The notes beneath the pieces are model-generated. The model was given only the letters and a program-made list of their open reading frames with translations, was not told the DNA's origin and made no database searches. The position numbers and the translations under genes are program-made. Below, in pieces: positions 1 to 35,520 of a DNA stretch of 35,520 nt. Numbering within the stretch: position 1 is the stretch's first letter; the number at the start of each line of letters is the position of its first letter. Source of the DNA: a virus. The DNA lies in IMG/VR virus record IMGVR_UViG_3300017605_000508, positions 1 through 35,520 of that record. One strand, given 5' to 3'.

Positions 1-141
1 AATTTCATTATGTTTCTTAAAATAAACTAATGCGTTTTTTAAAATATTAAGATCATCTTTACAAAATCCTAACATTCTATTGCAATTTGCACACAATAAT
101 CCTCTGGATTTTCCTGTTGAATGATTACGATCAAAAGCCAA
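1..141. repeat. Terminal direct repeat, left copy
   Basis: Bases 1-141 are identical to 35380-35520. Both copies lie inside the same leftward gene, whose reading frame continues without interruption across the join. This means the window is a circular or circularly permuted molecule written with an overlap, not a genome with a functional terminal repeat. An overlap of exactly 141 bases is also a common assembler k-mer length, which favours an assembly origin (inference). Confidence 0.95.
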
Positions 142-441
142 TTTTTCTGGTTGTTTACAAATATCGCATTGTCCTTTTTGTTCTTCAAATAATGCTTTAT
201 AATGAGCATTAGAAAATTCGTATCCTTTTTCTTGTTTAATTTTGATTCCTTGTATTTCATCGTTAATGTCTTTTTCATTTACTTTTAAACCACCATTTGT
301 CAATCGTTGTAGCTTAAATTGTGTTTGAAGTGGGATATATCCATAAGAAAGCCAATTTTTTATATTGCTAGGAGACAAACCAACCTCTTTGTGCATAGCA
401 TAACCGCTTCCAAAATAGCTTAAAACATCATCAACAGTCAT
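1..441 (-). CDS. Cro-like HTH fused to endonuclease VII-like HNH domain (runs across the circular join)
   Basis: The frame opens at an ATG at 439-441 after an AAAGGGG ribosome site and is still open at base 1. Across the join it ends two codons later at TGA (35371-35373), for a total of 149 residues. Residues 1 to about 55 look like a phage Cro repressor: a short helical start, an HTH around LSPSNIKNWLSYGYIP and the family's LTNGGLKV ending. Residues about 85-147 match recombination endonuclease VII: CDIC, then FDRNHSTGKSRGLLCANCNRMLG, here cited as FDRNHSTGK followed by RGLLCANCN, and a final helix. The usual DHDH is DRNH, so the first histidine is arginine and activity is uncertain. The gene heads a leftward operon and diverges from the early operon, the classical cro/repressor place. 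A DNA-binding nuclease or a regulator that kept a nuclease fold as a zinc module are both possible. Confidence 0.8.
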   Translation of the reverse strand, partial: MTVDDVLSYFGSGYAMHKEVGLSPSNIKNWLSYGYIPLQTQFKLQRLTNGGLKVNEKDINDEIQGIKIKQEKGYEFSNAHYKALFEEQKGQCDICKQPEKLAFDRNHSTGKSRGLLCANCNRMLGFCKDDLNILKNALVYFKKHNEI

Positions 442-7223: not shown

Positions 7224-7255
7224 GACATCTTGATATTATGACATCTTGATGTCAT
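7224..7255. repeat. Partition-site candidate downstream of parA
   Basis: GACATCTTGAT occurs at 7224-7234 and 7240-7250, exactly 16 bases apart. The second copy is also half of an inverted repeat, ATGACATC-TT-GATGTCAT (7238-7255). The same ATGACATC/GATGTCAT core, with the same 16-base spacing, occurs upstream of parA at 8110-8137. Repeated sites beside a ParA/RHH pair are typical centromere or operator sites. Confidence 0.65.
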
Positions 7256-7261
7256 ACATCA

Positions 7262-7462
7262 TTATGACTTTAAATATTGCTTCAACATCTGAATCAAAAC
7301 AGGCTGAAGTTTTTTATTTTCCTTGACCAACTTCATTTTCACCTGCTTATAAAGATGTGCAGGAATGCGCAAAGTATATTGCTGATTATCAACCGCAAGC
7401 TTCGTTAGCTTGCCATGATTTTTGTTTTTGTCAAATTCCTTCCCTGATTTAATTAGCGCCAT
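7262..7462 (-). CDS. Ribbon-helix-helix partner of ParA (ParB/ParG-like centromere binder)
   Basis: 66 residues. A basic flexible N-terminus (KSGKEFDKNKNHGKLTK) precedes a ribbon-helix-helix core: the strand QQYTLRIPAHLYKQVK, then a second helix to the end. This is the plan of ParG/omega-type partner proteins, which bind the partition site with RHH and stimulate ParA ATPase with the N-terminal arm. It overlaps the end of parA by 14 bases and has GAGG before its ATG, so the two are co-expressed. Confidence 0.75.
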   Translation of the reverse strand: MALIKSGKEFDKNKNHGKLTKLAVDNQQYTLRIPAHLYKQVKMKLVKENKKLQPVLIQMLKQYLKS

Positions 7463-8081
7463 GATAGAATTCCTCTAGTTCGTTAACAATAGCTACAATC
7501 TCTCTCATGGCTGCGGTATCACTTTCACATACTGTGCGACCTTCTTCGACAGATCTTGCATATTCTTGGCGCTGGCATGTCCCGTGGATAAATACAGGAA
7601 GGCCAAGGGCAAAAAGCTGCTCTGTGATTTCTCTGCCTAATTTGGTGCCCTTGATGTTTCTGCAAACCACAAATGCAGCTTTGAGTTTCCCCTCGGTTAT
7701 ATCGATTCGTTCCTGCACCAAGCGTACCAAGTCCTCAGTCGCCCAAATATCATAAGGGGATGGCTGTACCGGGATTAAAACCATGTCCGCGGCTTTGATA
7801 GCGCAAACAGTCAGAGGCGACACCCGTGGGATACCATCGATGATGATTCGCTCATAACGGTCTTTAAATTTGATAACATCCTTATCAAGTGTATTGACAG
7901 GTAAACAGGTCAAGTCAATCAATTCACCACCGGACTCTTCATGCCAGCGTAATGCTGACCCTTGGCTATCCGAGTCCACAAGTAGAGTTTTCAAACTGCG
8001 CTTGGTATATTCACGTGCCATATTAACTGCAAGGGTTGTTTTTCCCGTACCGCCCTTTTGATTTAATATTGAAATTATCAT
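7449..8081 (-). CDS. parA: ParA-family partition ATPase
   Basis: 210 residues from the ATG at 8081. A longer reading from 8117 adds 12 residues, but the shorter form starts directly with the family's first strand. The deviant Walker A KGGTGKTT is at residues 9-16, followed by LLVDSDSQGSALRW (Walker A') and IIIDGIP (Walker B). The ATPase forms a DNA-bound gradient that positions plasmid copies before division, using a small site-binding partner, here the RHH gene overlapping its end. No chromosomal-type N-terminal HTH is present, so it is the short plasmid-type ParA. In a phage this points to extrachromosomal prophage maintenance. Confidence 0.9.
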   Translation of the reverse strand: MIISILNQKGGTGKTTLAVNMAREYTKRSLKTLLVDSDSQGSALRWHEESGGELIDLTCLPVNTLDKDVIKFKDRYERIIIDGIPRVSPLTVCAIKAADMVLIPVQPSPYDIWATEDLVRLVQERIDITEGKLKAAFVVCRNIKGTKLGREITEQLFALGLPVFIHGTCQRQEYARSVEEGRTVCESDTAAMREIVAIVNELEEFYHGAN

Positions 8082-8109
8082 ATCCTGATGCCTTAATGTA
8101 TTGTTGTCT

Positions 8110-8137
8110 GATGTCATGATATAATGATGTCATGATA
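8110..8137. repeat. Repeated operator/partition site upstream of parA
   Basis: GATGTCATGATA is present twice, at 8110-8121 and 8126-8137, with 16-base periodicity, and AT-rich sequence between. It lies in the short gap between parA (leftward) and the methyltransferase remnant (rightward). Its GATGTCAT core also occurs at 7248-7255. The RHH protein probably binds here to autoregulate and/or to partition. Confidence 0.7.
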
Positions 8138-8147
8138 GGATAATAAA

Positions 8148-8297
8148 ATGCAACTATTGGATTTATTTTCAGGAATAGGCGGTTTCTCATTAGCTGCGCA
8201 ATGGGCTGGAATTGAAACCATACAATTTGTAGAAAAAGATAAATTTTGCAGAAAAGTATTAATGAAAAATTTTCTCAAAAATGTGAAATGGTTATAG
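8148..8297 (+). pseudogene. 5' remnant of a C5-cytosine DNA methyltransferase
   Basis: 49 codons after AGGATAATAAA and ATG. The peptide LLDLFSGIGGFSLAAQWAG is the AdoMet-binding motif I of Dcm-type methyltransferases, and FVEKDKF is motif II. The frame then stops at TAG, before the catalytic PC motif and target-recognition region, so it cannot be active. No continuation is present elsewhere in the window. The intact ribosome site and start suggest a recent deletion fused it to the DUF551 remnant just downstream. Confidence 0.8.
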
Positions 8298-18904: not shown

Positions 18905-19201
18905 TTATGGATAAGCAGCCGTTGTGAATTTCACTAAAGAACCGGCTTGTCTCCCTACATATAAATCATTAGTGGTGTCATACAGGATAACACCATTTAC
19001 AAGTTGTCCGGCTGTATTCATATCTGTAATTTGCGTTTGTGTATATCCAATTGCAGTTAATAGATTAAATGCATTTTGAATATCACTCATGTTTTCATTA
19101 AGCGAATCAACCAGTACCCATATCCACTGTACAAATTGATAATTGAACTCAAAAATGTTGGCAATGGGTGAGGAGTCTATTCTATCCAGAAAGATAGTCA
19201 T
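18905..19201 (-). CDS. Short protein at the tail-needle position
   Basis: 98 residues. It begins at ATG overlapping the upstream TAA (TAATG). The N-terminal half is helical and aromatic (NYQFVQWIWVLVDSLNENMS). The C-terminal half (GVILYDTTNDLYVGRQAGSL, then VKFTTAAYP) resembles the short beta module found at tips of phage tail proteins. In P22 the gene here is gp26, the 233-residue needle that plugs the tail. This one is less than half as long, so it is either a reduced plug or a different tail-tip protein. Confidence 0.6.
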   Translation of the reverse strand: MTIFLDRIDSSPIANIFEFNYQFVQWIWVLVDSLNENMSDIQNAFNLLTAIGYTQTQITDMNTAGQLVNGVILYDTTNDLYVGRQAGSLVKFTTAAYP

Positions 19202-20991
19202 TAATTAGCCCCTCCACTCACACGTTTAGTATTGCGAACACCCCCCAAAATAACAATAGGCGCGGATGAAACACATACTAATCGGTAGCATCGGTTTCTT
19301 GAACATCCTAACTCATACCAACGCATTCGCCATCGGTACTCACCTAATGGACTAAACTCTCTTAAATCGGCTGGTAGGTACGTTTCTCCGCCATCGTCAG
19401 AATAATAAAGTTCAATGTAAGGCTTAAACAAATCGCAATAATGGTTATCGTCAAATGTCGGCGTATTGCCTTCCGCAATAATAAACTTATCATCCTCAGT
19501 GACCATGTAAATAGGATGAGTTGGTGTACTATCTTCATCAACGATAAATTTGGTATTGAGGAAAGGCACACAACTTTGGTAAAAAGTTTTATTACCAAAT
19601 ACAAAGTCAATTTCGACATATTCATCGACAAATTCCGAATAATTCTCTAAGAATAGGTGCTTTGTCACCAACTCATAACGCATTGGGAATTTTAAAAACG
19701 CATCATCCGCTTGGTCATTTGGCTGATCAGGATTTCTAAGCTCGTTGTAATAGATATTTCCTGCCATTTGATAGATTGCTGGATCATCTTGCACAATGAC
19801 TAAATGTGTATTGTTAAAATAAACGTGTTTTTGTATACGATTTCGCTCACCGTTTAATTCAATACAACGACCCCATGTTTGGGTTTCAAAGTTATATTCG
19901 ATGGAATTGGCGTTGTCTATAATATCCAAATCACCAAATCCAACGAACGTACCTGCAACTGCACGATAGAAAATCGTATTTTCATACTGATACAAAAACC
20001 CGTCCACTTCGGTATTTAAAAATGGACTTAATGTGTCAGGATGGGTGGAATTTTCAAGTAAAACGTTAATCGCCTGACTTGATATATCCTGTGGGTTTTG
20101 TCCATTACTCATCATGAATGACACAAGCCCTTCTTGATTTTTAGCAAGCCAAACCATCATACTAAACCCAATTGCCAAACTGTTTGGGTCAGCAATGCCA
20201 TAATCCAAGTTATAGGACGAGTTCAATTTCCATGGAAATTCACGTGTCACACTACCTACAGTAATTTGAGTAATAATGTTTGCCCAAACATCTGTCGTAA
20301 AGTCACACATGATATACAACTGGTTGTGCAACACTGCAAATTGCCCAATGATACCAGACGCTCGACCATTCAGTGCAGCACCATTAATCGTAAAATAAGT
20401 GCCTGCATTACCAGAAAGATTGATCGTGCTTAGATAAAAGTCTGGTGTTCCTTCTACGCTCACAACAAAGCGGTTACCGAACGCCGCAACGTAGAGAGGT
20501 TTTCCCCCGGTAGTAGCGCCACCAGGAGCATTCGGGTCGGTAACCACCTCGGCGGTGACGTTGGAGACATCTTCTTTAATTACAAAGATGTGATTACCAT
20601 CCGTCAGCATGTTATAAACCAATGTACCAACTGCAAGGGTCGCAAACCATATAGGCGTACCCAATGACACATTGATTGGCAAAACTTTCCGATTATAGAA
20701 CGAGTCATATTGATAAACCGTTGTCCCATCCACCACGTATAAATAGTTAATGGACTTGAACTCAACGCGAGGTTGGGCATTAAAAATAAGGCGGTTTTGA
20801 TTAAGAAAGTGAACGTGCTTACGACCCATTGTTGGGTAAAGAGCTTGTTTTTTCTTAGCAGAATCAACTTGAATACCATACCAATTCGCACAATCCATTG
20901 CGCCAAATTGTACGAATCGCTGTTTGTCGTAGTAACAAAATATCGGCAACGCTTCAATGTTAGCAACATCTTGTTTTTGTAAGGCAGCCAT
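19201..20991 (-). CDS. P22 gp10-like tail accessory factor (packaged DNA stabilisation)
   Basis: 596 residues from the ATG at 20991, which overlaps the gp4-like stop (TAATG). The N-terminal part (INYLYVVDGTTVYQYDSFYN, then VYNMLTDGNHIFVI) and internal repeats (FGNRFVVSVEGTPDFYLS) mark a beta-propeller-like protein as in gp10. gp10 hexamers bind under gp4 and close the head after packaging. At 596 residues it is longer than P22 gp10 (472). The last 130 residues add a beta domain (IELYYSDDGGETYLPADLRE). Order and fold support the call. Confidence 0.85.
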   Translation of the reverse strand: MAALQKQDVANIEALPIFCYYDKQRFVQFGAMDCANWYGIQVDSAKKKQALYPTMGRKHVHFLNQNRLIFNAQPRVEFKSINYLYVVDGTTVYQYDSFYNRKVLPINVSLGTPIWFATLAVGTLVYNMLTDGNHIFVIKEDVSNVTAEVVTDPNAPGGATTGGKPLYVAAFGNRFVVSVEGTPDFYLSTINLSGNAGTYFTINGAALNGRASGIIGQFAVLHNQLYIMCDFTTDVWANIITQITVGSVTREFPWKLNSSYNLDYGIADPNSLAIGFSMMVWLAKNQEGLVSFMMSNGQNPQDISSQAINVLLENSTHPDTLSPFLNTEVDGFLYQYENTIFYRAVAGTFVGFGDLDIIDNANSIEYNFETQTWGRCIELNGERNRIQKHVYFNNTHLVIVQDDPAIYQMAGNIYYNELRNPDQPNDQADDAFLKFPMRYELVTKHLFLENYSEFVDEYVEIDFVFGNKTFYQSCVPFLNTKFIVDEDSTPTHPIYMVTEDDKFIIAEGNTPTFDDNHYCDLFKPYIELYYSDDGGETYLPADLREFSPLGEYRWRMRWYELGCSRNRCYRLVCVSSAPIVILGGVRNTKRVSGGAN

Positions 20992-21935
20992 TAAATACCT
21001 GCCCTGACACGCCACGCGCCATTAAGAAGTGACTGTTTATCACCGACAATAGATAGATTAACTTCAGAAGCTGCCTCCATTTGAGCTTTTAACTCCCGAT
21101 AGTCGGTTTCTAAATCTTGCGTCCATGCACCACTACGTCCTTTAAACTTACTCACATACTTTGCCACTGCATAAAGCAAAAATAGCTCCTGATAGTCTGG
21201 CAATCCTTCCAGCGTATCGTTTGAAGTTAGCGGCAATTTTTGAAACTTACCCCGACAGAAAAACTCGAAAAACTGGCTAGGCGCAGGATAAAGCTGCGCT
21301 CTCACCAAGTGTGTTTCGGGATAAGTGATAAGAAAGCGCGGCAAGCCCTGTAGAGGCTCATATTTCCATGCCGCCAAGAATTCATCCCTGCTTTGGATAA
21401 TCAACGGGTAAGTAACCCCGCTTAATTGGAGCCATGCGCTATCAAGATTAGCCATCCTGCCTTCTTTAATATACGCAATGGTGGGCGTTGGTATCTCATG
21501 CGAGAACGTCAATACCGACGCACCAGTTATCGTCGCATTCATAGTCATCGTGACCGTGTTTACGACGATATCCAATATCTTTGCACCTAGTGGAATCCCA
21601 CCGCCTGACACACCATCACCGATGCTATAAATGCTACCGTCTGCCACCGTAAAGGTGGGCGAAACTGCCGTCAACGTACATGTTTCTTGTTGTGTACTCA
21701 CAGGCCCCACGTAATCAGGGGAAGTAAACCAAATCTCTTTGACAGGCAAATTAATCGGAACAGTTACAGTTTTAGCAATGGTTAATAACAAACCTGTTGA
21801 TGCATAGCTCGTTAAAAGTTGGTTCAACACTTGAATAGCAAGTTTCTGGTCGTCACCATGTTCAGGTACGACAGGGCTCGCCGCCGTAATCAAACGATAC
21901 ATTTGAAATACAAACTCACGAACGGTACTCGCCAT
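20991..21935 (-). CDS. P22 gp4-like tail accessory factor (head completion)
   Basis: 314 residues. The N-terminal helices (EFVFQMYRLITAASPVVPEH, then LAIQVLNQLLTSYASTG) match the gp4 family, which binds the portal ring after packaging. About 85 residues in the middle (about 88-150, TFTVADGSIYSIGDGVSGGG and onward) look like an inserted beta module; P22 gp4 is only 166 residues. The C-terminal helices (YQELFLLYAVAKYVSKFKGR) resume the gp4 pattern. The gene is coupled to gp10-like by a one-base overlap. Confidence 0.8.
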   Translation of the reverse strand: MASTVREFVFQMYRLITAASPVVPEHGDDQKLAIQVLNQLLTSYASTGLLLTIAKTVTVPINLPVKEIWFTSPDYVGPVSTQQETCTLTAVSPTFTVADGSIYSIGDGVSGGGIPLGAKILDIVVNTVTMTMNATITGASVLTFSHEIPTPTIAYIKEGRMANLDSAWLQLSGVTYPLIIQSRDEFLAAWKYEPLQGLPRFLITYPETHLVRAQLYPAPSQFFEFFCRGKFQKLPLTSNDTLEGLPDYQELFLLYAVAKYVSKFKGRSGAWTQDLETDYRELKAQMEAASEVNLSIVGDKQSLLNGAWRVRAGI

Positions 21936-22317: not shown

Positions 22318-23562
22318 TTATGAACAGATACGAACCGCAAACTCAGGGTTAATTGCGACACCGCAGATAACGTCGATACGATCTAACTGTTCGTAGTTTC
22401 TGATGTCCGCGCCAAGAGAGTAGGTCATTGCCAACTTGTAGAGGTCGGAATAACGGGTGACTGCTTCAACACCACCGCGTAGTTCTTTGATTGGAGGGGC
22501 TGCAAACACAACAGCTTGTGTATGATATGCAAGCGATACATTATGCGAGGCTCTCAACAGGATTTGCGCACCATTTGGAATCGACGCAGAAATGTTTTGG
22601 CGAGCACCATCAATAACGATAGTCGGATTTACTGGAATAATAGCCGTATCACCATCTGCGGATATAACATCAGCAGTAACAACAAATTGAGCACGTTGTT
22701 CCAAAGGTTCATAAGTTAATGGGTTAACCATAAACACTTCGGAAGCATCATCAATTTCGATAATGTCACCCAATCTGAATACAAGTGTTCCGCCTGCTTG
22801 GCCTAAACTGTCGACTTCAATGGTATTACCATCAACAATTGGGCCATTTGTTACAATACCGCCCAATAGGAATCCAGCAGGAGGAGAGCCACCTGCTTGA
22901 CCTGCACCTGCGATTTGACGCTTCAAGAAGTTGGTCTTGAAGAAATCAAACCCGCTTAAGTGACCAACAAAGCCGTCAATCAATGCACCTGTATTAACGG
23001 TGTTGTTGAAGGTATTGAAAAGGTCATTTGAAAGGTTTGCTGCAACACGAGGAGAAACAGCACAGTAACGTTTTCCATCTTCTGGAATCGCCAATTCTGT
23101 CATGTAAGCATCAGCACTTAAAATTGTATTGAAGTCTACAGGTACGCCGGGGGTTCCGACTGCTTGATAAGTCTTGTCTTGAAATTCTTGAGCAATGAAA
23201 CGTTCAACCATATTACCTAAACGTTTTGCTCTTGGCGCATTCGCCATTTCAAGGTAAGGTTCGTCACGTGCGCGATCAAAGGTTAAGTTAAAACCTGTGT
23301 ATTCGAGCATGATGCGAAACTGCTTGGTAATAGAAAGCGGTCTGATGACCTGTACACGAGCTTCAGAAGTCGCACTTGCACCTTCACCACCTAAATATCT
23401 TTCTTCTAAGCGATAGTCTAAGGTTTGGCCGGTTGCGAAACGAAGATTTTTAAAATCACCTTCAAGATTGCGGTTTGAGGTTCTTGCAAAAGATAAACTA
23501 TTCCAGAAACGTACAAATACGTCATCCAGAACGTATTGAGTTTCCCTAAATAAATTAGGCAT
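22318..23562 (-). CDS. Major capsid (coat) protein, P22 gp5-like
   Basis: 414 residues from the ATG at 23562, chosen for GGGAG upstream and the MPNLFRETQYVLDD opening; the longer frame from 23628 lacks a site. Features typical of P22-type coat proteins: TGQTLDYRLEERYLGGEGAS, VQVIRPLSITKQFRIMLEYT near the start, and the C-terminal RIDVICGVAINPEFAVRI. It forms the icosahedral HK97-fold shell with the scaffold encoded upstream. The rightward cargo sits between scaffold and coat, and a sigma70-like promoter at 23706-23735 reads into coat. Confidence 0.9.
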   Translation of the reverse strand: MPNLFRETQYVLDDVFVRFWNSLSFARTSNRNLEGDFKNLRFATGQTLDYRLEERYLGGEGASATSEARVQVIRPLSITKQFRIMLEYTGFNLTFDRARDEPYLEMANAPRAKRLGNMVERFIAQEFQDKTYQAVGTPGVPVDFNTILSADAYMTELAIPEDGKRYCAVSPRVAANLSNDLFNTFNNTVNTGALIDGFVGHLSGFDFFKTNFLKRQIAGAGQAGGSPPAGFLLGGIVTNGPIVDGNTIEVDSLGQAGGTLVFRLGDIIEIDDASEVFMVNPLTYEPLEQRAQFVVTADVISADGDTAIIPVNPTIVIDGARQNISASIPNGAQILLRASHNVSLAYHTQAVVFAAPPIKELRGGVEAVTRYSDLYKLAMTYSLGADIRNYEQLDRIDVICGVAINPEFAVRICS

Positions 23563-23705
23563 CGTTGTTCTCCCTGAACAAACAAATGAATTCGATAATT
23601 GCTCTTGCGAGCACCTATTACTTTTCATTCGTCCGACGGGAGACTACTAACAGCTTACGCGTCTATGTAAATCTTGGGTGATGGAATCCCTTACTCATCA
23701 AGGAA

Positions 23706-24559: not shown

Positions 24560-24778
24560 CTATTCTGTTTTATATTTATCATTCTTTGCCAAAGCTGTGC
24601 CAAAGTGCATCAATGCAAGATGTAGCGCCCTTAGTGCTAACATTAATTCAGCACATTTTGGAGAGGCTGCACACATAAGTGTTGCAATACTTTTTACAGC
24701 ATCATAAGCACAGTTATGCCTGTTTAAATCTTCAGCATCCAATTTAACACGATCAAAAATTTCATTAATTAAACTCAT
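24560..24778 (-). CDS. Small helical protein, possibly Acb2-like
   Basis: 72 residues, all helical, with CAYDAVKSIATLMCAASP, then LMLALRALHLALMHFGTALA and a charged end. The size, two-helix plan and the ALxxAxMHxGTALAK-type second helix recall Acb2 anti-CBASS sponges, which bind cyclic nucleotides and often sit among phage structural genes. The resemblance is weak and from memory. It starts 12 bases after the scaffold stop with GGAGAAAAGACA before the ATG. Confidence 0.6.
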   Translation of the reverse strand: MSLINEIFDRVKLDAEDLNRHNCAYDAVKSIATLMCAASPKCAELMLALRALHLALMHFGTALAKNDKYKTE

Positions 24779-24790
24779 TGTCTTTTCTCC

Positions 24791-25768
24791 TTATCGATTT
24801 CTAGCATGTCGGTTTTTAACAACGGCCAAGCGTTTTGCATCCGCTTTAGCCAATAGATCATCGCCCGATGTGTCTTTCTGTTTAGGCACAACTTTGGCGG
24901 TCGCATCCTCTTTAGTTCGACCCAATGGCCTTGGCGCTTTTGTTACAGGTTTATTTTTACGCATACGTTCCTCAAGTTTACCCATCTCAACCATTCGCGC
25001 ATAAGGGTCTGGTAGCTTTGAAATGCGCTCAAGTTCTTGTGGATTACGCTTGCTGGCCGCATAAATGAACGCTGATGGGTCGGACATCCCACGCAATGCC
25101 AATGTCATGGCATCATCAATAGGTTGGCTCCCCACCACATCCCTAAAGTCACCGAAACGTTCCATGCCACGGGTAAATTTTTGCGCAAACTGGTGCTCTG
25201 CCTGCCTTTCTTGGACTTCACGCTGTTTTTGTTGTTCGTCACGCTGCATGTTAGTGACTGTGTTTTTCACAAAGTCAGATAACTGCTGTTCCCACGACAC
25301 TTCATCACTTGGGTCATACTTAAAGTCTTTGACAGCTTGCTGAACTTCCTTACTGGCACCTTGACTCGATAATTGCTGGCGTAAAGCCTGCAATTCTCGG
25401 TCTCGTTGCTCAATTTCTCGCTGGTGTTGTTTCTCTTTTCGATCAAGGCGCTCTTTCATACCCTTGCTCATACGCTCTTTCTTGTTGCCGTATTCGTCTA
25501 TGTCGTCCTCATGTGACTCTGATTCATCCGATTTTCTAGTTTCGGTTATCTCTTCGTCCTCATTTTCATCATGAGAGGCTTTCTTTTCCGGTTCAACGTC
25601 ATCTCCATCGTCATAGCTGACATTTTCCTCTTGTTTGGTTTCATTCTGTTCTACATCGCCCATTTCTTCCGGTTCAGCCTCCAACTTTTCCTTATGTTCC
25701 GGTGTCATCGGCTGTTGGGAATTACCTACACCCATCAATAAATCATCAATACTACTTATTTCGCTCAT
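24791..25768 (-). CDS. Scaffolding protein
   Basis: 325 residues, very rich in Glu, Asp, Lys and Gln, with an acidic first third and a long coiled coil (KERLDRKEKQHQREIEQRDR and onward). It ends in a short basic stretch (KNRHARNR), as in P22 gp8, where a C-terminal basic helix binds coat. Its place between portal and coat, with good GAGGGAA before the ATG, supports the call. It is thought to guide procapsid assembly and then exit. Confidence 0.8.
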   Translation of the reverse strand: MSEISSIDDLLMGVGNSQQPMTPEHKEKLEAEPEEMGDVEQNETKQEENVSYDDGDDVEPEKKASHDENEDEEITETRKSDESESHEDDIDEYGNKKERMSKGMKERLDRKEKQHQREIEQRDRELQALRQQLSSQGASKEVQQAVKDFKYDPSDEVSWEQQLSDFVKNTVTNMQRDEQQKQREVQERQAEHQFAQKFTRGMERFGDFRDVVGSQPIDDAMTLALRGMSDPSAFIYAASKRNPQELERISKLPDPYARMVEMGKLEERMRKNKPVTKAPRPLGRTKEDATAKVVPKQKDTSGDDLLAKADAKRLAVVKNRHARNR

Positions 25769-25789: not shown

Positions 25790-28123
25790 TTATTGAACTT
25801 TGTGAGTCAAAATCTTAACCAGATTATCTGCATGTGCGATAGCCTTATCAGATTCTGTGCGGTGTGTTTCGGCAGCAAAATTCATCTTTTCTTTCTCCAT
25901 TTTAGCTGCCAATTCAAGTTGCGCAATTTCAAGTCTCATTTGCTCAACTTCAATATCCGCTTGCGTTTGCTTTTGTTTTAACGCTAATTCTTGCTGTTTA
26001 AGCTGAATTTGCGCTTGTTGGTATTGCTGTTGTATCTGTAAAGCCTCCTGTTCTGGTGTGGGGCCTTGCTGCTTTGGCATATCTCCTGTCTTACCTGCTT
26101 CAATAATTTCAGGTGGCACCCTTGTTTTGAGTCGATTTGTGATTTCGATTGTGTTGGACAATGGCAAGTTTTGCGCAAATAGATCGGCAATCAATACCCA
26201 TGATGTTGGGTCGGCCTTCAATACTTCACGTAATGACTGCAAAGCTTGCTCTTTTTGACCTTCGTATGATGGCCCTGGTTTCAGGCGTACTTGATAGGTG
26301 CCTTTACGAATATCGTTTTCAATCTGTTCTCCGTAGTCATCCATTTGACGGTTGATGGTAACGTTTTGCATCCCCTTATCCGGCATCATAATCGTCATGA
26401 CTCGTTCAGTATCATAAACACGAGGTATCATTTCGTTGACTATCTCACCACCTGTCGCAATAGCTCGATTAATCGAGTTAAAAAACACAAATGTCGAGTA
26501 ACTACCTTGTCGGGTTCTTGCATCAATAGCAGCACCACTGGCTTCATCACCAGCCTGCCCCATGCGCGCAGGGTACAACCCTGTCGAGGTGTATAAATCT
26601 TGAATAGCGAGTTGGTATTGCTGAAACAGTGATTGTGATAACTCAGGCGGTCTGATTTGTTCTGGTTTAAGCCCGTCTGGGTCTTTGTCATACGCAAGCA
26701 ATCCTTGTGTGTTGGTAGGGTCTGACCAGTTGGCCTTGGTATCCATGCTGGACACAACCGTTTTGGGGCCAATCCATTGGTCATAGCGTGACACTTTCAG
26801 GATGTAGGCTGATTGAGTACGTAAATAATTGATGTAACGTTGAGTATCTTCACAATCATCAAAGAACGAACGGCAAATTTGTTTGCCTGTCTTGTCGTAA
26901 TAACTGTTATTATCAACAAAAACTAACGGCAATTGTTCACTCGGAAACTCTGTTTTATCCAGTTCATACTCACCAGCAATACGGTAGTGAACGATTTTGT
27001 GTTTCTTCGACGGTCTTTTTTCTTCAATACGCACCATTTCACCGTCTTGCCACAACATCATGCGACCATCATCGTCTTGCTCGGCTGGTTGTGCGCCTGG
27101 TGTCACATCAACACCATTATCTTGAGGCAATATGTCATGGTCACCGTCCATTCCAAACCCTTGTGGATCATACACTTGGCCTGTCCTATTGGTTTGTGGC
27201 CCCATTTGTGCCAATTGCTGTGCCAAACCTTGGGTGTTACTCATTCCTTGTTGACCCCCGCTCATCATTTGCACCTGTTGCATTTGCGCTTCAAGCTCTG
27301 CATTTCTGGCATTAATCTCTTTAGATTTTTCGATTAATTCGTCCATTTCCTCTTGATTAAGCACATTGCCGTTTGAAAGCTTGTAAAGTGTGTCCTTTTC
27401 AAACTTGCGCACATAGTGATCAATAATGGTAATTGAATCATCATCTGCCCACACAAACGGATTGCCCGATTCATCTGGTTGTACGGCAAGCGCTATTTCC
27501 TCTTCTGTTTGAGTAATACTGCTTGATTTCAAGATGCTTTCTTCAACTTCTTTGCCATAGACATCACGAACCTTTTGCCGTGTCATACGAGAGAGGTAAC
27601 CACACACAGTGCCATCGGTTTTACTAATAGATTCTGCACCCACATCCCAATAGCATCGTGTTGCATCATGAAAATAGTAATAGCAGATATCAAGGTCAAA
27701 AGATTTTCTATGGTTGTAGTCGGTACCAACACAGTAAGCGCCATACCCACCAATGGCCGCTTGTCCGGCAGCCACTTGATATGTCAAGGTAGCATTGGAT
27801 GAAAACATAATGTCTTTGGTGATGACTTCACGTAAAGCTGCAACCTTTTCGGTGCAACCCATCATCGGTACGACTTGTAACTGCGGGGTATTTTGCTGCT
27901 GTTCACCTAACAAGGAATTAGCCATTGTGCCTAACTGATTGGCAGTCAATGGTGTCTTTCTGTAGGTTTCTACCATGTCTTCGCGATCTTCGTCCGACCA
28001 CTGTTTACCGAGAACAAATTCGTGCATTAAATGGTAATTATCAATGTTTCGTTTAAACGATTGATAAAATTTCTCATAAGCAATACGGGCTTCACGTGCA
28101 ACCTTTTCATTTAGTTTAGGCAT
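25790..28123 (-). CDS. Portal protein, P22 gp1-like
   Basis: 777 residues, close to P22 portal (725). The N-terminus ends in helices typical of the family (YHLMHEFVLGKQWSDEDRED, then TPLTANQLGTMANSLLGEQQ). The middle carries the barrel part (GPKTVVSSMDTKANWSDPTN). The C-terminal 130 residues are Gln/Lys-rich helices (QQQYQQAQIQLKQQELALKQ), like the barrel of P22. A Gln/Gly/Met-rich loop near 275-345 is extra. It forms the 12-mer gate for DNA packaging and ejection. Confidence 0.9.
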   Translation of the reverse strand: MPKLNEKVAREARIAYEKFYQSFKRNIDNYHLMHEFVLGKQWSDEDREDMVETYRKTPLTANQLGTMANSLLGEQQQNTPQLQVVPMMGCTEKVAALREVITKDIMFSSNATLTYQVAAGQAAIGGYGAYCVGTDYNHRKSFDLDICYYYFHDATRCYWDVGAESISKTDGTVCGYLSRMTRQKVRDVYGKEVEESILKSSSITQTEEEIALAVQPDESGNPFVWADDDSITIIDHYVRKFEKDTLYKLSNGNVLNQEEMDELIEKSKEINARNAELEAQMQQVQMMSGGQQGMSNTQGLAQQLAQMGPQTNRTGQVYDPQGFGMDGDHDILPQDNGVDVTPGAQPAEQDDDGRMMLWQDGEMVRIEEKRPSKKHKIVHYRIAGEYELDKTEFPSEQLPLVFVDNNSYYDKTGKQICRSFFDDCEDTQRYINYLRTQSAYILKVSRYDQWIGPKTVVSSMDTKANWSDPTNTQGLLAYDKDPDGLKPEQIRPPELSQSLFQQYQLAIQDLYTSTGLYPARMGQAGDEASGAAIDARTRQGSYSTFVFFNSINRAIATGGEIVNEMIPRVYDTERVMTIMMPDKGMQNVTINRQMDDYGEQIENDIRKGTYQVRLKPGPSYEGQKEQALQSLREVLKADPTSWVLIADLFAQNLPLSNTIEITNRLKTRVPPEIIEAGKTGDMPKQQGPTPEQEALQIQQQYQQAQIQLKQQELALKQKQTQADIEVEQMRLEIAQLELAAKMEKEKMNFAAETHRTESDKAIAHADNLVKILTHKVQ

Positions 28124-28168: not shown

Positions 28169-29698
28169 TTAAAGCAATCTTCCTGCGTGTCTTGCTGGCA
28201 GTTTCTTTACCTGATAACCGCCATCAGAAACGTATTCTCCTCCATAAAACGTAAGCATCAAGGCTTCACCACAATCTGGCGACAAACACCCACGCTTTTT
28301 CATATCTTCTTTTTTTTCAATCAATAATCTGTCGCTTGAATCGTATTTATACCCAAACACGGTTAAATCAGTTTGTAACTCATCACTATCGGGTATCTCA
28401 ACTGGCATGTCTTGCGTCAACCAGTCTCGTGTTCTATCCCATAATTCAGCACGTGTGTTCCTATACTTTTTGGGTTGCTCTGGTTTCCTTGCAACATTGA
28501 CGCCTACTACAATATCACCATAACCAAGTTCGTGCAGTCTATCCACAACACCTGCACCAATCCCAATGCAATCAATACAAACGCGTTTTGGTTTCTCGTT
28601 ATCGATAATACGCTTAACAATTCCTGCAAGTTCCATGGTGTCTAGGTTGTAGTGTGTTTCAAGCTTATAAGCCTTACGAGCTTTGCGACGAATAATCGCA
28701 ATGCGGTCATCGCCCATACGTGATGGGTCAACACCAATAACTAATGCCGCATCACTTTCAACTTTGGTGACTCTTGCCTTTTGCACCGTATCAACATGAA
28801 TGAATGTGTCCATAATTGATGACAGGAATGCTTCATCATCGGTAAAAGGATATTCTTGCCGAAACTTTCTGCGTTTCTGGTCATCATCCCCTTTGAAATC
28901 TTGGAACTTAATGCGTCTCCAGTTCAAATGCCCCGCGGTCAACCCATTTGACCCAAACTTCTCAAGCCAGTCGTTTTCTTCCTCAGTCGGTTTGAAGTTT
29001 GGGTCATCGATGGAATATTCATCTTGCCAATACCAAGGCACAAAGATGGCTTGATATCTTGTTTTACCGTTCTTAGCTTCCTTCCAGTCCGAATAAAAGT
29101 CATTGTCGATACCATTTGCTGTTGATTCTTTTATGACCTCAGTATCACTCATTTCAGCGACAGTATTAAGCAATCCCATACCGATTTTGGCAGCGTCTTT
29201 GTAGAACGCATACTCAGACAAATGCAAATACTGATTAGTCATCCCTCGGCCAACCTCAGTACTACCGGCTGTACCTACACGATAGCCAGACCCCAATAGG
29301 TTGTACATGAGAGTATTATCATTTTTTTTGTCTGGACGTGGGAAAATAAGGTTATCCACATTTTCGCTATAACGTTTAGTCATTCCAAAGATGGCACGTG
29401 TCGCATCCGATAAATGAGTCAAAATGAATGCTTGTTTGCCACGCTTCGTAATAATCTTGTGGAAGTATCGAGCCTGCACGTAGGTTGAAACACCCTGTTG
29501 TCGGCCTTTTAATATCAATGCGCGCACTTTGCCTGTGGCCTTGTATTGCGCCTCTAATCGTTCATGGATGTAAAGTTGTGCGCGGTTCATGACAAACTTA
29601 AGCTCAACGCCGGCTTTGTCATGGATAATGAGAAAGTTTTTCGCAAAACTAGGCAATGATTTCAATATTCGAATTAGCTTGGCTTCATCCATTTGCAT
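28169..29698 (-). CDS. terL: Terminase large subunit
   Basis: 509 residues. Walker A-like KGRQQGVST lies at residues 64-72 and the Walker B region at YLHLSEYAFY (about 165). The RNase H-like nuclease follows with VIGVDPSRMGDDRIAI (first Asp) and KRVCIDCIGIGAGVVDRL (second Asp); the third acidic site is near SPDCGEALML, where many relatives have Asp. It cuts concatemeric DNA and pumps it into the head, consistent with headful packaging. The start overlaps the zinc-ribbon gene by 14 bases. Confidence 0.92.
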   Translation of the reverse strand: MQMDEAKLIRILKSLPSFAKNFLIIHDKAGVELKFVMNRAQLYIHERLEAQYKATGKVRALILKGRQQGVSTYVQARYFHKIITKRGKQAFILTHLSDATRAIFGMTKRYSENVDNLIFPRPDKKNDNTLMYNLLGSGYRVGTAGSTEVGRGMTNQYLHLSEYAFYKDAAKIGMGLLNTVAEMSDTEVIKESTANGIDNDFYSDWKEAKNGKTRYQAIFVPWYWQDEYSIDDPNFKPTEEENDWLEKFGSNGLTAGHLNWRRIKFQDFKGDDDQKRRKFRQEYPFTDDEAFLSSIMDTFIHVDTVQKARVTKVESDAALVIGVDPSRMGDDRIAIIRRKARKAYKLETHYNLDTMELAGIVKRIIDNEKPKRVCIDCIGIGAGVVDRLHELGYGDIVVGVNVARKPEQPKKYRNTRAELWDRTRDWLTQDMPVEIPDSDELQTDLTVFGYKYDSSDRLLIEKKEDMKKRGCLSPDCGEALMLTFYGGEYVSDGGYQVKKLPARHAGRLL

Positions 29699-29860: not shown

Positions 29861-30343
29861 TTACTCTACCAATTTATCAATAAGCATTCCGATAACGGTT
29901 TTATCATTTACTTTGTTTTCGTCCGTCTTATCGCCATATTGTCTAGGTAATAATTTAGCAGCCAGAAACTTTCGCGTATCAATACGTAACCGTGAACGTT
30001 GTACATGTTCACCGTTTAATTTATGACCAACCTCACCGTCCTCACCGAAACTTTCCATCCAGTCGTTCGTACCATCGTCTGCAATATCAAGGCATTCTTC
30101 TGCCAATAAATCAGCTTGTTTGAGCTTAGCTTGTGCGTATTGGGCGGAAAAGTTTGGATATTGATAACGCCAAAGATTTACAGTTGATTTATCGGGAATG
30201 TCGTCGTGTAGCGCACAAAGTCTGGCAAGCCCAAAGGTTGAAGTTGCCACACGTTGACAAATAAGGTCAGCCAACTCTTGAGTATAAAGAGTGGGCCTTC
30301 CTAATTTCTTTCTTTCCTCCGGCTTTTTCTTTGGAGTAGCCAT
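29861..30343 (-). CDS. terS: Terminase small subunit (Sf6 gp1-like)
   Basis: 160 residues. The order matches Sf6/P22-type small terminases: basic N-terminus with GRPTLYTQELADLICQRV, an HTH (ARLCALHDDIPDKSTVNLW), then LAEECLDIADDG and RLRIDTRKFLAAKLLPRQYG. The C-terminal tail (DKTVIGMLIDKLVE) probably contacts the large subunit. It recognises the packaging start site, which probably lies in or near this gene in P22-like phages. Confidence 0.88.
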   Translation of the reverse strand: MATPKKKPEERKKLGRPTLYTQELADLICQRVATSTFGLARLCALHDDIPDKSTVNLWRYQYPNFSAQYAQAKLKQADLLAEECLDIADDGTNDWMESFGEDGEVGHKLNGEHVQRSRLRIDTRKFLAAKLLPRQYGDKTDENKVNDKTVIGMLIDKLVE

Positions 30344-32277: not shown

Positions 32278-32478
32278 CTATTTTTCAATATGGACGTTTT
32301 TCGCCACTGGCCCTTTGGGTGACTGTGCAGATTCAAAGGTAACACGGTCACCCTCTTTCAAGCTTTTAAACCCTTGACCTTGAATCTCTTTGAAGTGCAC
32401 GAAATAGTCGCCATCTTCAGATGCAATAAAACCAAAACCTTTTCCATTGTTAAACCATTTTACGGTACCTTTTTGCAT
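32278..32478 (-). CDS. Cold-shock-domain protein (CspA-like)
   Basis: 66 residues. RNP1 is KGFGFI and RNP2 is DYFVHF (usually VFVHF), within the standard [15 protein letters not shown] opening and the [11 protein letters not shown] end. It is an RNA/ssDNA-binding OB-fold protein that melts RNA secondary structure. It is a stand-alone leftward gene converging with the accessory operon. Host-derived cold-shock genes in small phages are uncommon; it may aid phage mRNA translation. Confidence 0.92.
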
Positions 32479-32824: not shown

Positions 32825-33589
32825 TCAGCATTTCATTTTTTTAATAAGCACTCGTAATTCTTCTGGCATAGCTACCCGCTTGTATACCTCATTGCGGGCG
32901 ATGTTTTCAGCCTCCCTATCCATTTGCTTTTGGCTCTGAGCCTTATTATTCATGCTTTCAGCAAAATCATGAGGTTTTGCATTCTCTTTCCTCCACGCGC
33001 TTTTGGGCTTTTCGCTTTTGGGCTTTTTTTGTGCAGATGCACAAAAGCTTTTATCTTTTTTTATTTTTTTTATTTCTTTATATTTGAGGGGGACGTTTTT
33101 GTCACTAGGTGGTGACATTTTTGTCCCTGGGGCAGTGACATTTTTGTCCCTGGGTCTGCCTGACTTATCCACAATTACTAACTTATCCACAGGTGCGGTT
33201 TCCGCACCACTGGTTTTTAATGGCGTGGGTGTATGTTGCTCGTAATAGTCTAGACAATCTTGAAGAGGGCGGTGCATGAATTCATGGTCTAGGAATATGA
33301 AACTGTTAGCGCCACCTTTTTTTATTTGATATGTTTCTATTAATCCGACATCCCTTAACTCTTTCAAGCCGCGCTTAATGACTCTAACTTGACATCCCAT
33401 TTCAACACTTAATTGAGGGGCTGAACGGCTGACATATCCTTTCGTATTGCTCCATTGAGCGAGTCGCCCATATAACATTTTTGCTAAATGGGATAATTCG
33501 TTATGGGGTACTTGAATAAGCCAGCATGGGATATAAATAGCTGGTGCGTGTGATTTGGGGTTGTGCAGTTTACGTTCTGGTTGTGACAT
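32825..33589 (-). CDS. Winged-helix replication initiator candidate (lambda O-like plan)
   Basis: 254 residues. Residues 15-115 form a winged-helix domain (WLIQVPHNELSHLAKMLYGR, LSVEMGCQVRVIKRGLKELR, GLIETYQIKKGGANSFIFLD). The middle (about 125-185) is disordered and Lys/Pro-rich and is encoded by the iterons and DnaA boxes of the origin, followed by a charged helical end. Like lambda O, it has a DNA-binding N-terminus, an origin inside its own gene and a C-terminus that could recruit helicase. TTAGGAGAAGGAACTT precedes the ATG. It is most likely the replication initiator. Confidence 0.75.
   Translation of the reverse strand: MSQPERKLHNPKSHAPAIYIPCWLIQVPHNELSHLAKMLYGRLAQWSNTKGYVSRSAPQLSVEMGCQVRVIKRGLKELRDVGLIETYQIKKGGANSFIFLDHEFMHRPLQDCLDYYEQHTPTPLKTSGAETAPVDKLVIVDKSGRPRDKNVTAPGTKMSPPSDKNVPLKYKEIKKIKKDKSFCASAQKKPKSEKPKSAWRKENAKPHDFAESMNNKAQSQKQMDREAENIARNEVYKRVAMPEELRVLIKKMKC
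33027..33191. other. Origin-like region inside the replication gene
   Basis: In order: an inverted repeat TTTTGTGCA-GA-TGCACAAAA (33027-33046), an almost pure A/T tract (33047-33087), three iterons starting at 33090, 33112 and 33135 (two identical: GTGACATTTTTGTCCCTGG; one variant GGGACGTTTTTGTCACTAGG) spaced 22-23 bases, and two perfect DnaA boxes TTATCCACA at 33165-33173 and 33183-33191. A/T tract, iterons, DnaA boxes and a cognate initiator are the components of plasmid and lambda-type origins. Confidence 0.75.
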
Positions 33590-34666: not shown

Positions 34667-34942
34667 TCATTTCGTAAACCTCCAAAATTCATCCATTTCT
34701 TTAATTACATTCTCATTGCGTTGCATGTTGTAATAAGTCGAAACACTGTCCCACGTACTTTTTTCTTTAATATAACGACGTGTACAATCGCAGCCCGAGT
34801 CATAGACTACTTCCGGCCAACCTTCATTAAAAAAAATATATCCGCATCCATATCCACAAATAGAACAATCATGCACTTTCCAAAAATGAATATTGTTTTT
34901 TAGTGCTTGATTTCTAAAATCTAACTCTGTTTTTCTATTCAT
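34667..34942 (-). CDS. Cysteine-rich phage protein, unknown
   Basis: 91 residues. CSICGYGCGYIFF, then VVYDSGCDCTRRY gives five to six cysteines in the first half, typical of a zinc-bound fold, followed by a helical tail. Phage proteins with a YDSGCDC motif are widespread but have no assigned role. GGGG precedes the ATG, which overlaps the upstream gene by eight bases. Confidence 0.7.
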   Translation of the reverse strand: MNRKTELDFRNQALKNNIHFWKVHDCSICGYGCGYIFFNEGWPEVVYDSGCDCTRRYIKEKSTWDSVSTYYNMQRNENVIKEMDEFWRFTK

Positions 34943-35141
34943 TTAATCCCCGCAAATCATCATTTTTTTCCTTTTCATATCGTTCAGCATAGCCGCGACC
35001 CAAGCTATCAAACATCTCAACTGCGTCTTTAAAATGTTTTAACTCGTCGGCATGATCTTTTTCACATCGTTCAATGATTTTTCTAGCAAATCGGTATAAC
35101 TCATAAATTTCGTCTTTCGTTTCGACTTCACTTTGACTCAC
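34935..35141 (-). CDS. Small helical protein, second of a duplicated pair
   Basis: 68 residues. IYELYRFARKII, then FKDAVEMFDSLGRGYAERYE matches the upstream gene's IYMLYRVAKKLL and IKIFDRLVCGYAERYE position by position, so the two arose by tandem duplication. Both are short helical proteins ending in GYAERYE-N/K-E. ATGA overlaps with the upstream stop. Confidence 0.7.
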   Translation of the reverse strand: MSQSEVETKDEIYELYRFARKIIERCEKDHADELKHFKDAVEMFDSLGRGYAERYEKEKNDDLRGLNE

Positions 35142-35356
35142 TTTTTGTTTACTCCGTTTTTAATTTCATTTTCATATCGTTCTGCATAACCACAAACTAA
35201 CCTATCAAAAATTTTAATAGCATGTCTGAATTCTTGGAACATAAGAAAATCGCTATAATTTGTATCACAACGTTCCTCTTCCCTTTTAAGAAGTTTTTTA
35301 GCTACTCGATATAACATATAAATACATTCATCTTTTCCATGTTCAGTTTTATTCAT
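35138..35356 (-). CDS. Small helical protein, first of a duplicated pair
   Basis: 72 residues, the paralogue of the next gene (see there), with a slightly longer linker (EERCDTNYSDFLMFQEF). It lies 14 bases after the stop of the Cro-like/endonuclease VII fusion and is probably in its operon. Unknown function. Confidence 0.7.
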   Translation of the reverse strand: MNKTEHGKDECIYMLYRVAKKLLKREEERCDTNYSDFLMFQEFRHAIKIFDRLVCGYAERYENEIKNGVNKK

Positions 35357-35370
35357 CTTTTTTCGTCCAT

Positions 35371-35520
35371 TCAGTTTTTAATTTCATTATGTTTCTTAAA
35401 ATAAACTAATGCGTTTTTTAAAATATTAAGATCATCTTTACAAAATCCTAACATTCTATTGCAATTTGCACACAATAATCCTCTGGATTTTCCTGTTGAA
35501 TGATTACGATCAAAAGCCAA
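35371..35520 (-). CDS. C-terminal end of the Cro-like/endonuclease VII fusion (repeat copy)
   Basis: This is the same gene as the one at 1-441, seen again because the window overlaps itself. It supplies the last two codons (Lys-Asn) and the TGA stop. It carries the RGLLCANCN and MLGF motifs of the endonuclease VII domain and the closing helix LNILKNALVYFKKH. It should be merged with the left copy into one 450-base gene. Confidence 0.85.
   Translation of the reverse strand: MAFDRNHSTGKSRGLLCANCNRMLGFCKDDLNILKNALVYFKKHNEIKN
35380..35520. repeat. Terminal direct repeat, right copy
   Basis: Second copy of the 141-base repeat at the start of the window. Removing it leaves a unique circle of about 35,379 bp. 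Headful-packaging P22-like phages have circularly permuted DNA, which would give this kind of closing contig. Confidence 0.95.

Follow-up and report, generated by a model that had tools for sequence, protein, structure and literature searches.

A putative ParF/RHH partition locus between two arrays of 8-bp repeats in an integrase-less P22-like phage

Introduction

What is a plasmid-type partition locus doing in a phage with a P22-type virion? The question arises from IMG/VR record IMGVR_UViG_3300017605_000508, whose 35,520 nucleotides were analysed at full length (here called the window). A first-pass annotation of this DNA had described a ParA gene overlapping the gene of an RHH partner, repeated sites on both sides of the pair, an initiator/origin and no visible integrase, and had proposed a phage-plasmid lifestyle. 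Here we follow these elements through the window and through related loci, which were gathered by scanning IMG/VR and GTDB with ParA, RHH and portal.

Results

Genome organization and virion genes

The record ends in an exact 141-bp direct repeat (positions 1..141 equal 35380-35520), indicating that the window is a complete closed circle of 35379 bp; its G+C content is 39.7%. The structural genes include one for an ejection protein, together with the following:

19201..21015 (-), head closure Hc3, packaged-DNA stabilisation type (phrog_578)
22318..23628 (-), major capsid protein (phrog_283)
24791..25768 (-), scaffold (phrog_8865)
25790..28123 (-), P22-type portal (phrog_156, 286 bits)
28169..29698 (-), terminase large subunit (phrog_2)
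29861..30343 (-), Sf6-type terminase small subunit (PF20901, 108.6 bits)

With portal, scaffold, capsid, head closure and an Sf6-type small terminase all present, the predicted virion is that of a P22/Sf6-like podovirus, in agreement with the P22-type virion named in the first-pass annotation. In the phage collection it has distant relatives among phages of Vibrio, Shewanella and Thalassomonas, and some of their records carry the annotation "phage P22 like portal protein". A second block of genes encodes a Sak4-like annealing protein, an SSB, a Cas4-type exonuclease and a helicase.

Other regions of the window contain genes of separate interest. In the ORF at 1-441 (minus strand) a P22_Cro-like HTH domain is fused to a recombination endonuclease VII domain; in a relative (G015) the Cro-like domain is free-standing. 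The ORF may encode a chimeric Cro-nuclease in which the nuclease was possibly inserted behind cro. The 72-aa protein encoded at 24560-24778 (minus strand), which has a 61% identical counterpart in the same relative, gave a sub-threshold match to the Acb2/Tad1 hairpin domain (E 0.038) and is a possible candidate anti-CBASS protein. Two neighbouring small genes, 34935-35141 and 35138-35356, share a 77-nt stretch of 73% identity (within 34967-35240) and look like a tandem duplication.

Replication functions map to a lambda-O-like gene with intragenic iterons, which bears out the initiator/origin claimed earlier:

32825..33589 (-), lambda-O-like replication initiator (HTH_36; phrog_270, 3.1e-11; the HTH_36 score is below its cut-off)
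33090..33154, three 20-bp iterons GTGACATTTTTGTCCCTGGG inside the initiator gene, spacing 22-23 bp
33165..33191, two TTATCCACA DnaA-type boxes adjoining the iterons

DnaA boxes counted over the whole window showed no excess over chance, and the TTATCCACA pair beside the iterons is the only suggestive DnaA-box candidate. Near the initiator is a cold-shock protein gene (32278-32478, minus strand), found in all four mapped relatives at 59-79% identity.

Genes of the partition locus

The locus consists of two minus-strand genes lying between two repeat arrays:

7224..7255, downstream array, parS-like candidate site 2, 32 bp, four abutting 8-bp units
7262..7462 (-), predicted ParG/omega-like RHH centromere-binding protein, 66 aa (tail, QYTLRIP strand and two helices)
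7449..7462 (-), 14-bp overlap of parA and rhh
7449..8081 (-), parA, ParF/type Ib Walker ATPase, 210 aa, with the motif KGGTGKTT
8110..8141, upstream array, candidate parS/operator site 1, 32 bp, four abutting 8-bp units, in the presumed parA promoter region

ParA is a small protein without an N-terminal HTH, with a deviant Walker motif and the N-terminus MIISILNQKGGTGKTT. It scored 216.5 bits against partition family NF041546, above the curated cut-off of 180, matched phrog_164 (ParA-like), and matched ParF of TP228 (4dzz) with 102.5 bits over profile positions 2-202, that is, over the full length. The listed ORF spans 7449-8117 (minus strand), but homology starts only at residue 13, where the conserved start MIISILNQKGG is found; MIISILN opens all 12 aligned relatives. 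Homology and the conserved start thus move the true parA start from the ATG of the ORF list (8117) to 8081, which makes the upstream array intergenic and not part of parA.

The overlap of parA with the gene of its RHH partner, as first annotated, is confirmed at 14 bp; 21 of the 22 loci in our first locus set share it, and it may provide translational coupling. The RHH product matched Arc-like phrog_582 (E 0.0018) and, weakly in a profile search, the omega structures 1irq and 2bnw (E 0.08-0.09). A structure model of the 66-aa monomer was of low confidence and found no matches in a Foldseek search; the RHH fold is thus tentatively assigned from these profile matches and this model.

Directly upstream of the operon is a gene remnant, a 49-codon fragment of a C-5 cytosine DNA methylase (8148-8297, plus strand; PF00145 residues 1-44 of 324).

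Repeat arrays and their co-variation with the RHH domain

On the plus strand the downstream array reads GACATCTT, GATATTAT, GACATCTT, GATGTCAT and the upstream array reads GATGTCAT, GATATAAT, GATGTCAT, GATAGGAT, so that units stand in direct and inverted order. The word ATGACATC occurs five times in the window, four times in the two arrays and once elsewhere (12878), while whole-window shuffles had a mean of 1.27 copies and reached five or more in 1 of 100. The earlier statement that repeats flank the genes on both sides thus holds, but its 16-base spacing corresponds to two units of 8 bp; of its two array positions, 7224-7255 stands and 8110-8137 extends to 8110-8141. A sigma-70 promoter scan gave a signal not clearly above shuffles.

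The site sequence varies among 25 related loci, but both flanks retain the 8-bp period. In class A loci the RHH strand QYxLRIP pairs with GACATC units, in class B the strand PYLxNIP pairs with ATATTTAT units, and a third class, represented by L182, has the strand KFTIRIP and GC-rich GCCAGCAT-type units on both sides. When the 25 loci were tested as class A, class B and the remainder against dinucleotide shuffles, the strongest self-match lag was 8 or 16 in both flanks and in every site class (z 5.9 to 13). Over 24 loci, the upstream and downstream arrays of the same genome had 192 8-mer positions in common; 5000 permutations of the genomes gave 82 on average and never more than 163.

These results bear on the possibility that the repeats are mere noise, arising by chance or from AT-richness, near an otherwise ordinary ParA gene. 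Such noise would suit the few exact words in several relatives, the AT-rich sites of class B and the three loci (L017, L018 and L168) in which word matches are weak or missing. However, this reading is already contradicted by the periodicity, by the within-genome matching of the arrays and by the GC-rich units of L182, and we regard it as extremely improbable.

The RHH strand class equals the site class in 20 of 21 scorable loci, a count that carries no probability because the loci are non-independent; the site call of the sole mismatch, L017, rests on one AT-rich word. Phylogeny gives a stronger argument for co-variation than this count. Class B forms one clade in the RHH tree (100/97), but the ParA data reject such a clade (AU p 0.004), and in the ParA tree class A and class B loci are intermingled in one supported clade (95/91). 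An independent-pairs test of RHH class against site class gave no significance, with too few supported contrasts (2 pairs); the case for co-variation is therefore built on the matching of arrays within genomes, on the AU test and on the distance correlations given below.

Detailed comparison of the window with L004 locates the exchange. Although the two ParAs are 90% identical, the RHH domain of L004 and its arrays on both flanks belong to class B. Along the pair, DNA identity drops from 90% where parA meets rhh to 55-58% over the RHH domain, and to 53% upstream of parA; the breaks lie just inside rhh and just upstream of parA. As judged from these alignments, the RHH domain and both arrays appear to switch together, while the RHH tail stays with ParA. 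The co-variation can be regarded as an in-silico stand-in for footprinting, and it predicts that the RHH protein binds the arrays.

The plasmid-type partition locus proposed in the first pass is upheld by a ParA above the NF041546 cut-off, an RHH partner, and arrays on both flanks that co-vary with the DNA-contact strand of that partner. We consider it very probable that 7224-8141 is a real type Ib (ParF/RHH) partition locus.

A two-part adaptor

Over 21 loci, the distance between RHH tails (first 20 residues) followed ParA distance (rho 0.54, p 0.003) and had no relation to site class (rho -0.02), whereas RHH-domain distance followed site class (rho 0.79, p 0.001) and was weakly related to ParA distance (rho 0.22). 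ParA distance itself had no relation to class (rho 0.00). The correlation between domain and class is partly built in, because class was defined by the strand; with the strand left out, rho was still 0.60.

In TP228 the DNA is bound by the RHH fold of ParG (PMC5016525), and work cited in PMC9178275 (reference B17) attributes the action of the ParG tail on ParF to an arginine-finger-like motif. The natural reading of our correlations would be a double demand on the adaptor, for a tail suited to ParA and a domain suited to the DNA. The tail of the window RHH has no arginine, and Lys12, nearly invariant in the family alignment, could be a candidate for an arginine-finger-like role. There is about an even chance that the adaptor evolves as two exchangeable parts, a ParA-matched tail and a DNA-binding domain swapped together with both arrays, and that phages with near-identical ParAs so change their partition specificity; related phage-plasmids could then share a cell without being incompatible.

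The same data bear on whether the RHH protein is mainly an Arc/Mnt-like repressor of its own operon or of phage genes, the arrays being only operators and ParA having drifted to another role. This would agree with its matches to Arc-like repressors and with the location of the upstream array, where the operon promoter should be. It would not explain a second array beyond rhh that changes sequence in step with the first, a tail that co-varies with ParA, or the Walker motif, which is intact in 12 of 12 aligned ParA sequences, and we consider it highly unlikely.

Integrase, relatives and lifestyle

The absence of a visible integrase, noted in the first pass, was verified on the complete circle, in which no tyrosine recombinase (PF00589), resolvase (PF00239) or protelomerase was found. 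The tyrosine integrase PF00589 was detected in none of 32 phage-sized portal records (window included), and protelomerase PF16684 in none of the 12 records searched, so that the mark of N15/VP882-type linear phage-plasmids is missing. The only site-specific recombinase among near-full-length portal relatives is a serine recombinase (PF00239, 127 bits) in the par-negative relative G036 (L213, G036:C1:28772-29176).

Neither par nor tyrosine integrase is present in 23 of 32 near-full-length portal relatives, and for this reason the absence of an integrase proves nothing by itself about lifestyle. At least three of these are closed circles (G016, G017 and G026); in the two that were mapped, G017 and G026, the helicase-VRR nuclease slot is occupied by other small genes. 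Supported branches of the portal tree force at least four gains or losses of par. The par-negative relatives and this repeated gain or loss indicate that in this phage family par is an accessory module, which a genome may or may not carry.

The only GTDB genome match to the portal was BMAG01000039.1, a stand-alone contig of 36,484 bp whose 55-bp end overlap indicates a closed circle (36.4-kb). It has a portal 80% identical to that of the window, the same ParA family and a class A RHH. Its source is the soil single-cell genome BBSC-SA01, Legionellales UBA4722, with a G+C content of 39.4% (PMC7453286). The integrases of BBSC-SA01 are on other contigs (C40 and C1). In this circle, at L132 (G012:C39 29864-30502), a gene judged by eye to be metallophosphoesterase-like lies directly upstream of parA, and such genes are also present on a Marinobacter plasmid. 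No further close portal was found in the other genomes of the host's order that were searched. An integrase or attachment site in close relatives with integrated prophages had been named beforehand as evidence against the phage-plasmid proposal; no tyrosine integrase was found in the 32 records, and no integrated prophage in a GTDB genome scan made with two peptide patterns only, by which distant integrated relatives could be missed.

For phage-plasmids as defined in PMC12977533, the relevant findings are the missing integrase of the window and the closed circular contig of its relative in a single-cell genome. With respect to a temperate lifestyle, the window has a Cro-like HTH domain and no detected HTH_3 repressor. 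A search for CI-type and HTH_3 repressors recognised none in the window and none in 30 of the 31 relatives covered; the 32 records together yielded one HTH_3.

A real ParA/RHH module could also belong to a virulent or chronic phage, in which it would spread or position intracellular genomes during infection (carrier state, pseudolysogeny) with no stable prophage plasmid. The lack of a recognised CI-type repressor would fit such a phage, as would the many close relatives missing both par and integrase, the lambda-O-like origin, and the initiators that par-negative relatives have at the same position as that of the window. Against it are the tight overlap and the arrays at both ends, a layout shared with the par loci of plasmids and with RedRock, whose prophage is extrachromosomal and of low copy number (PMC7157519), and the closed circle in the genome assembly of a cell. 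A circular par-positive relative in a single-cell genome is what would be expected of a phage-plasmid, although a cell in lytic infection would look the same. Overall we consider a virulent or chronic phage unlikely. Plasmid-like persistence is probably what the par locus serves, and the proposed phage-plasmid lifestyle is supported in that all of its testable elements came out favourable.

Discussion

Our preferred explanation, for which the chances are good, is that the window carries the complete type Ib partition locus of an integrase-less P22-like phage, which keeps a low-copy episome in both daughter cells. The RHH protein would bind both arrays of 8-bp sites, repressing the parA-rhh operon at the upstream array and building the partition complex at both. 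Its N-terminal tail would contact nucleoid-bound ParA-ATP and trigger ATP hydrolysis, which would move or tether the copies of the phage genome, and each daughter cell would thereby receive the low-copy episome. As far as sequence comparison can tell, plasmid maintenance of the phage is the likely function.

A group of small P22-like phages would thus join those for which persistence as a plasmid is likely, and the single-cell genome points to a Legionellales host. The relatives also provide naturally matched adaptor/site pairs around an almost constant ParA, in three site classes that are swapped between close relatives, within loci of less than 1 kb. This is an unusually clean natural experiment on adaptor/site specificity, by which the RHH recognition code, and what underlies partition incompatibility, can be tested directly.

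The literature searched described no version that combines a P22-like virion with a Legionellales host and no tail/domain mosaicism, which is no proof of novelty. ParA-bearing plasmid-like phages have been assembled earlier from environmental viromes (PMC4490671). No portal relatives were found among 72,556 plasmids, and the two annotated records inspected of Vibrio phages with 26-31% portal identity list no par genes.

The phages VP882, phiHAP-1, VP58.5 and MAR carry ParAs of the same broad family, 43-44% identical to that of the window. Their virions differ from the one encoded here. VP882 belongs to the linear phage-plasmids of the N15 type (PMC13230959). The hallmark of this type is the protelomerase, for which the window has no detected gene. 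ParAs of higher identity (49-51%) are found in plasmids of Pleionea sp. HL-JVS1 and Marinobacter (p36788), where parA overlaps with a short gene of about 70 codons behind it. These 35-kb and 37-kb plasmids, respectively, were considered as phage-plasmids and rejected, as they are ordinary plasmids without annotated virion genes.

The partition design itself is known from RedRock, pB171 par2 and TP228. The par2 locus of pB171 has the order parC1-parA-parB-parC2, with the sites parC1 and parC2 (PMC4270457), and it is compared here by layout, being a plasmid and not a phage system. The parFGH system of TP228 has a ParF-type ATPase, an RHH partner with a flexible tail, and direct and inverted centromere repeats (PMC5016525), although no relation of the window RHH to ParG was detectable by profile. 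In TP228 the OF site lies between the centromere parH and the genes, both sites being on one side (PMC5016525), whereas the arrays of the window are split to both sides. RedRock, an integrase-less mycobacteriophage, has parS-L and parS-R sites of 8-bp repeats and is extrachromosomal at about 2.4 copies per cell (PMC7157519). The window resembles it in having no integrase and a parA with a small parB, but RedRock is an actinobacterial phage with eight repeats per parS, and ParAs of RedRock-type mycobacteriophages are about 30% identical to that of the window, which combines four units per array with a P22-like virion and a proteobacterial-type ParF.
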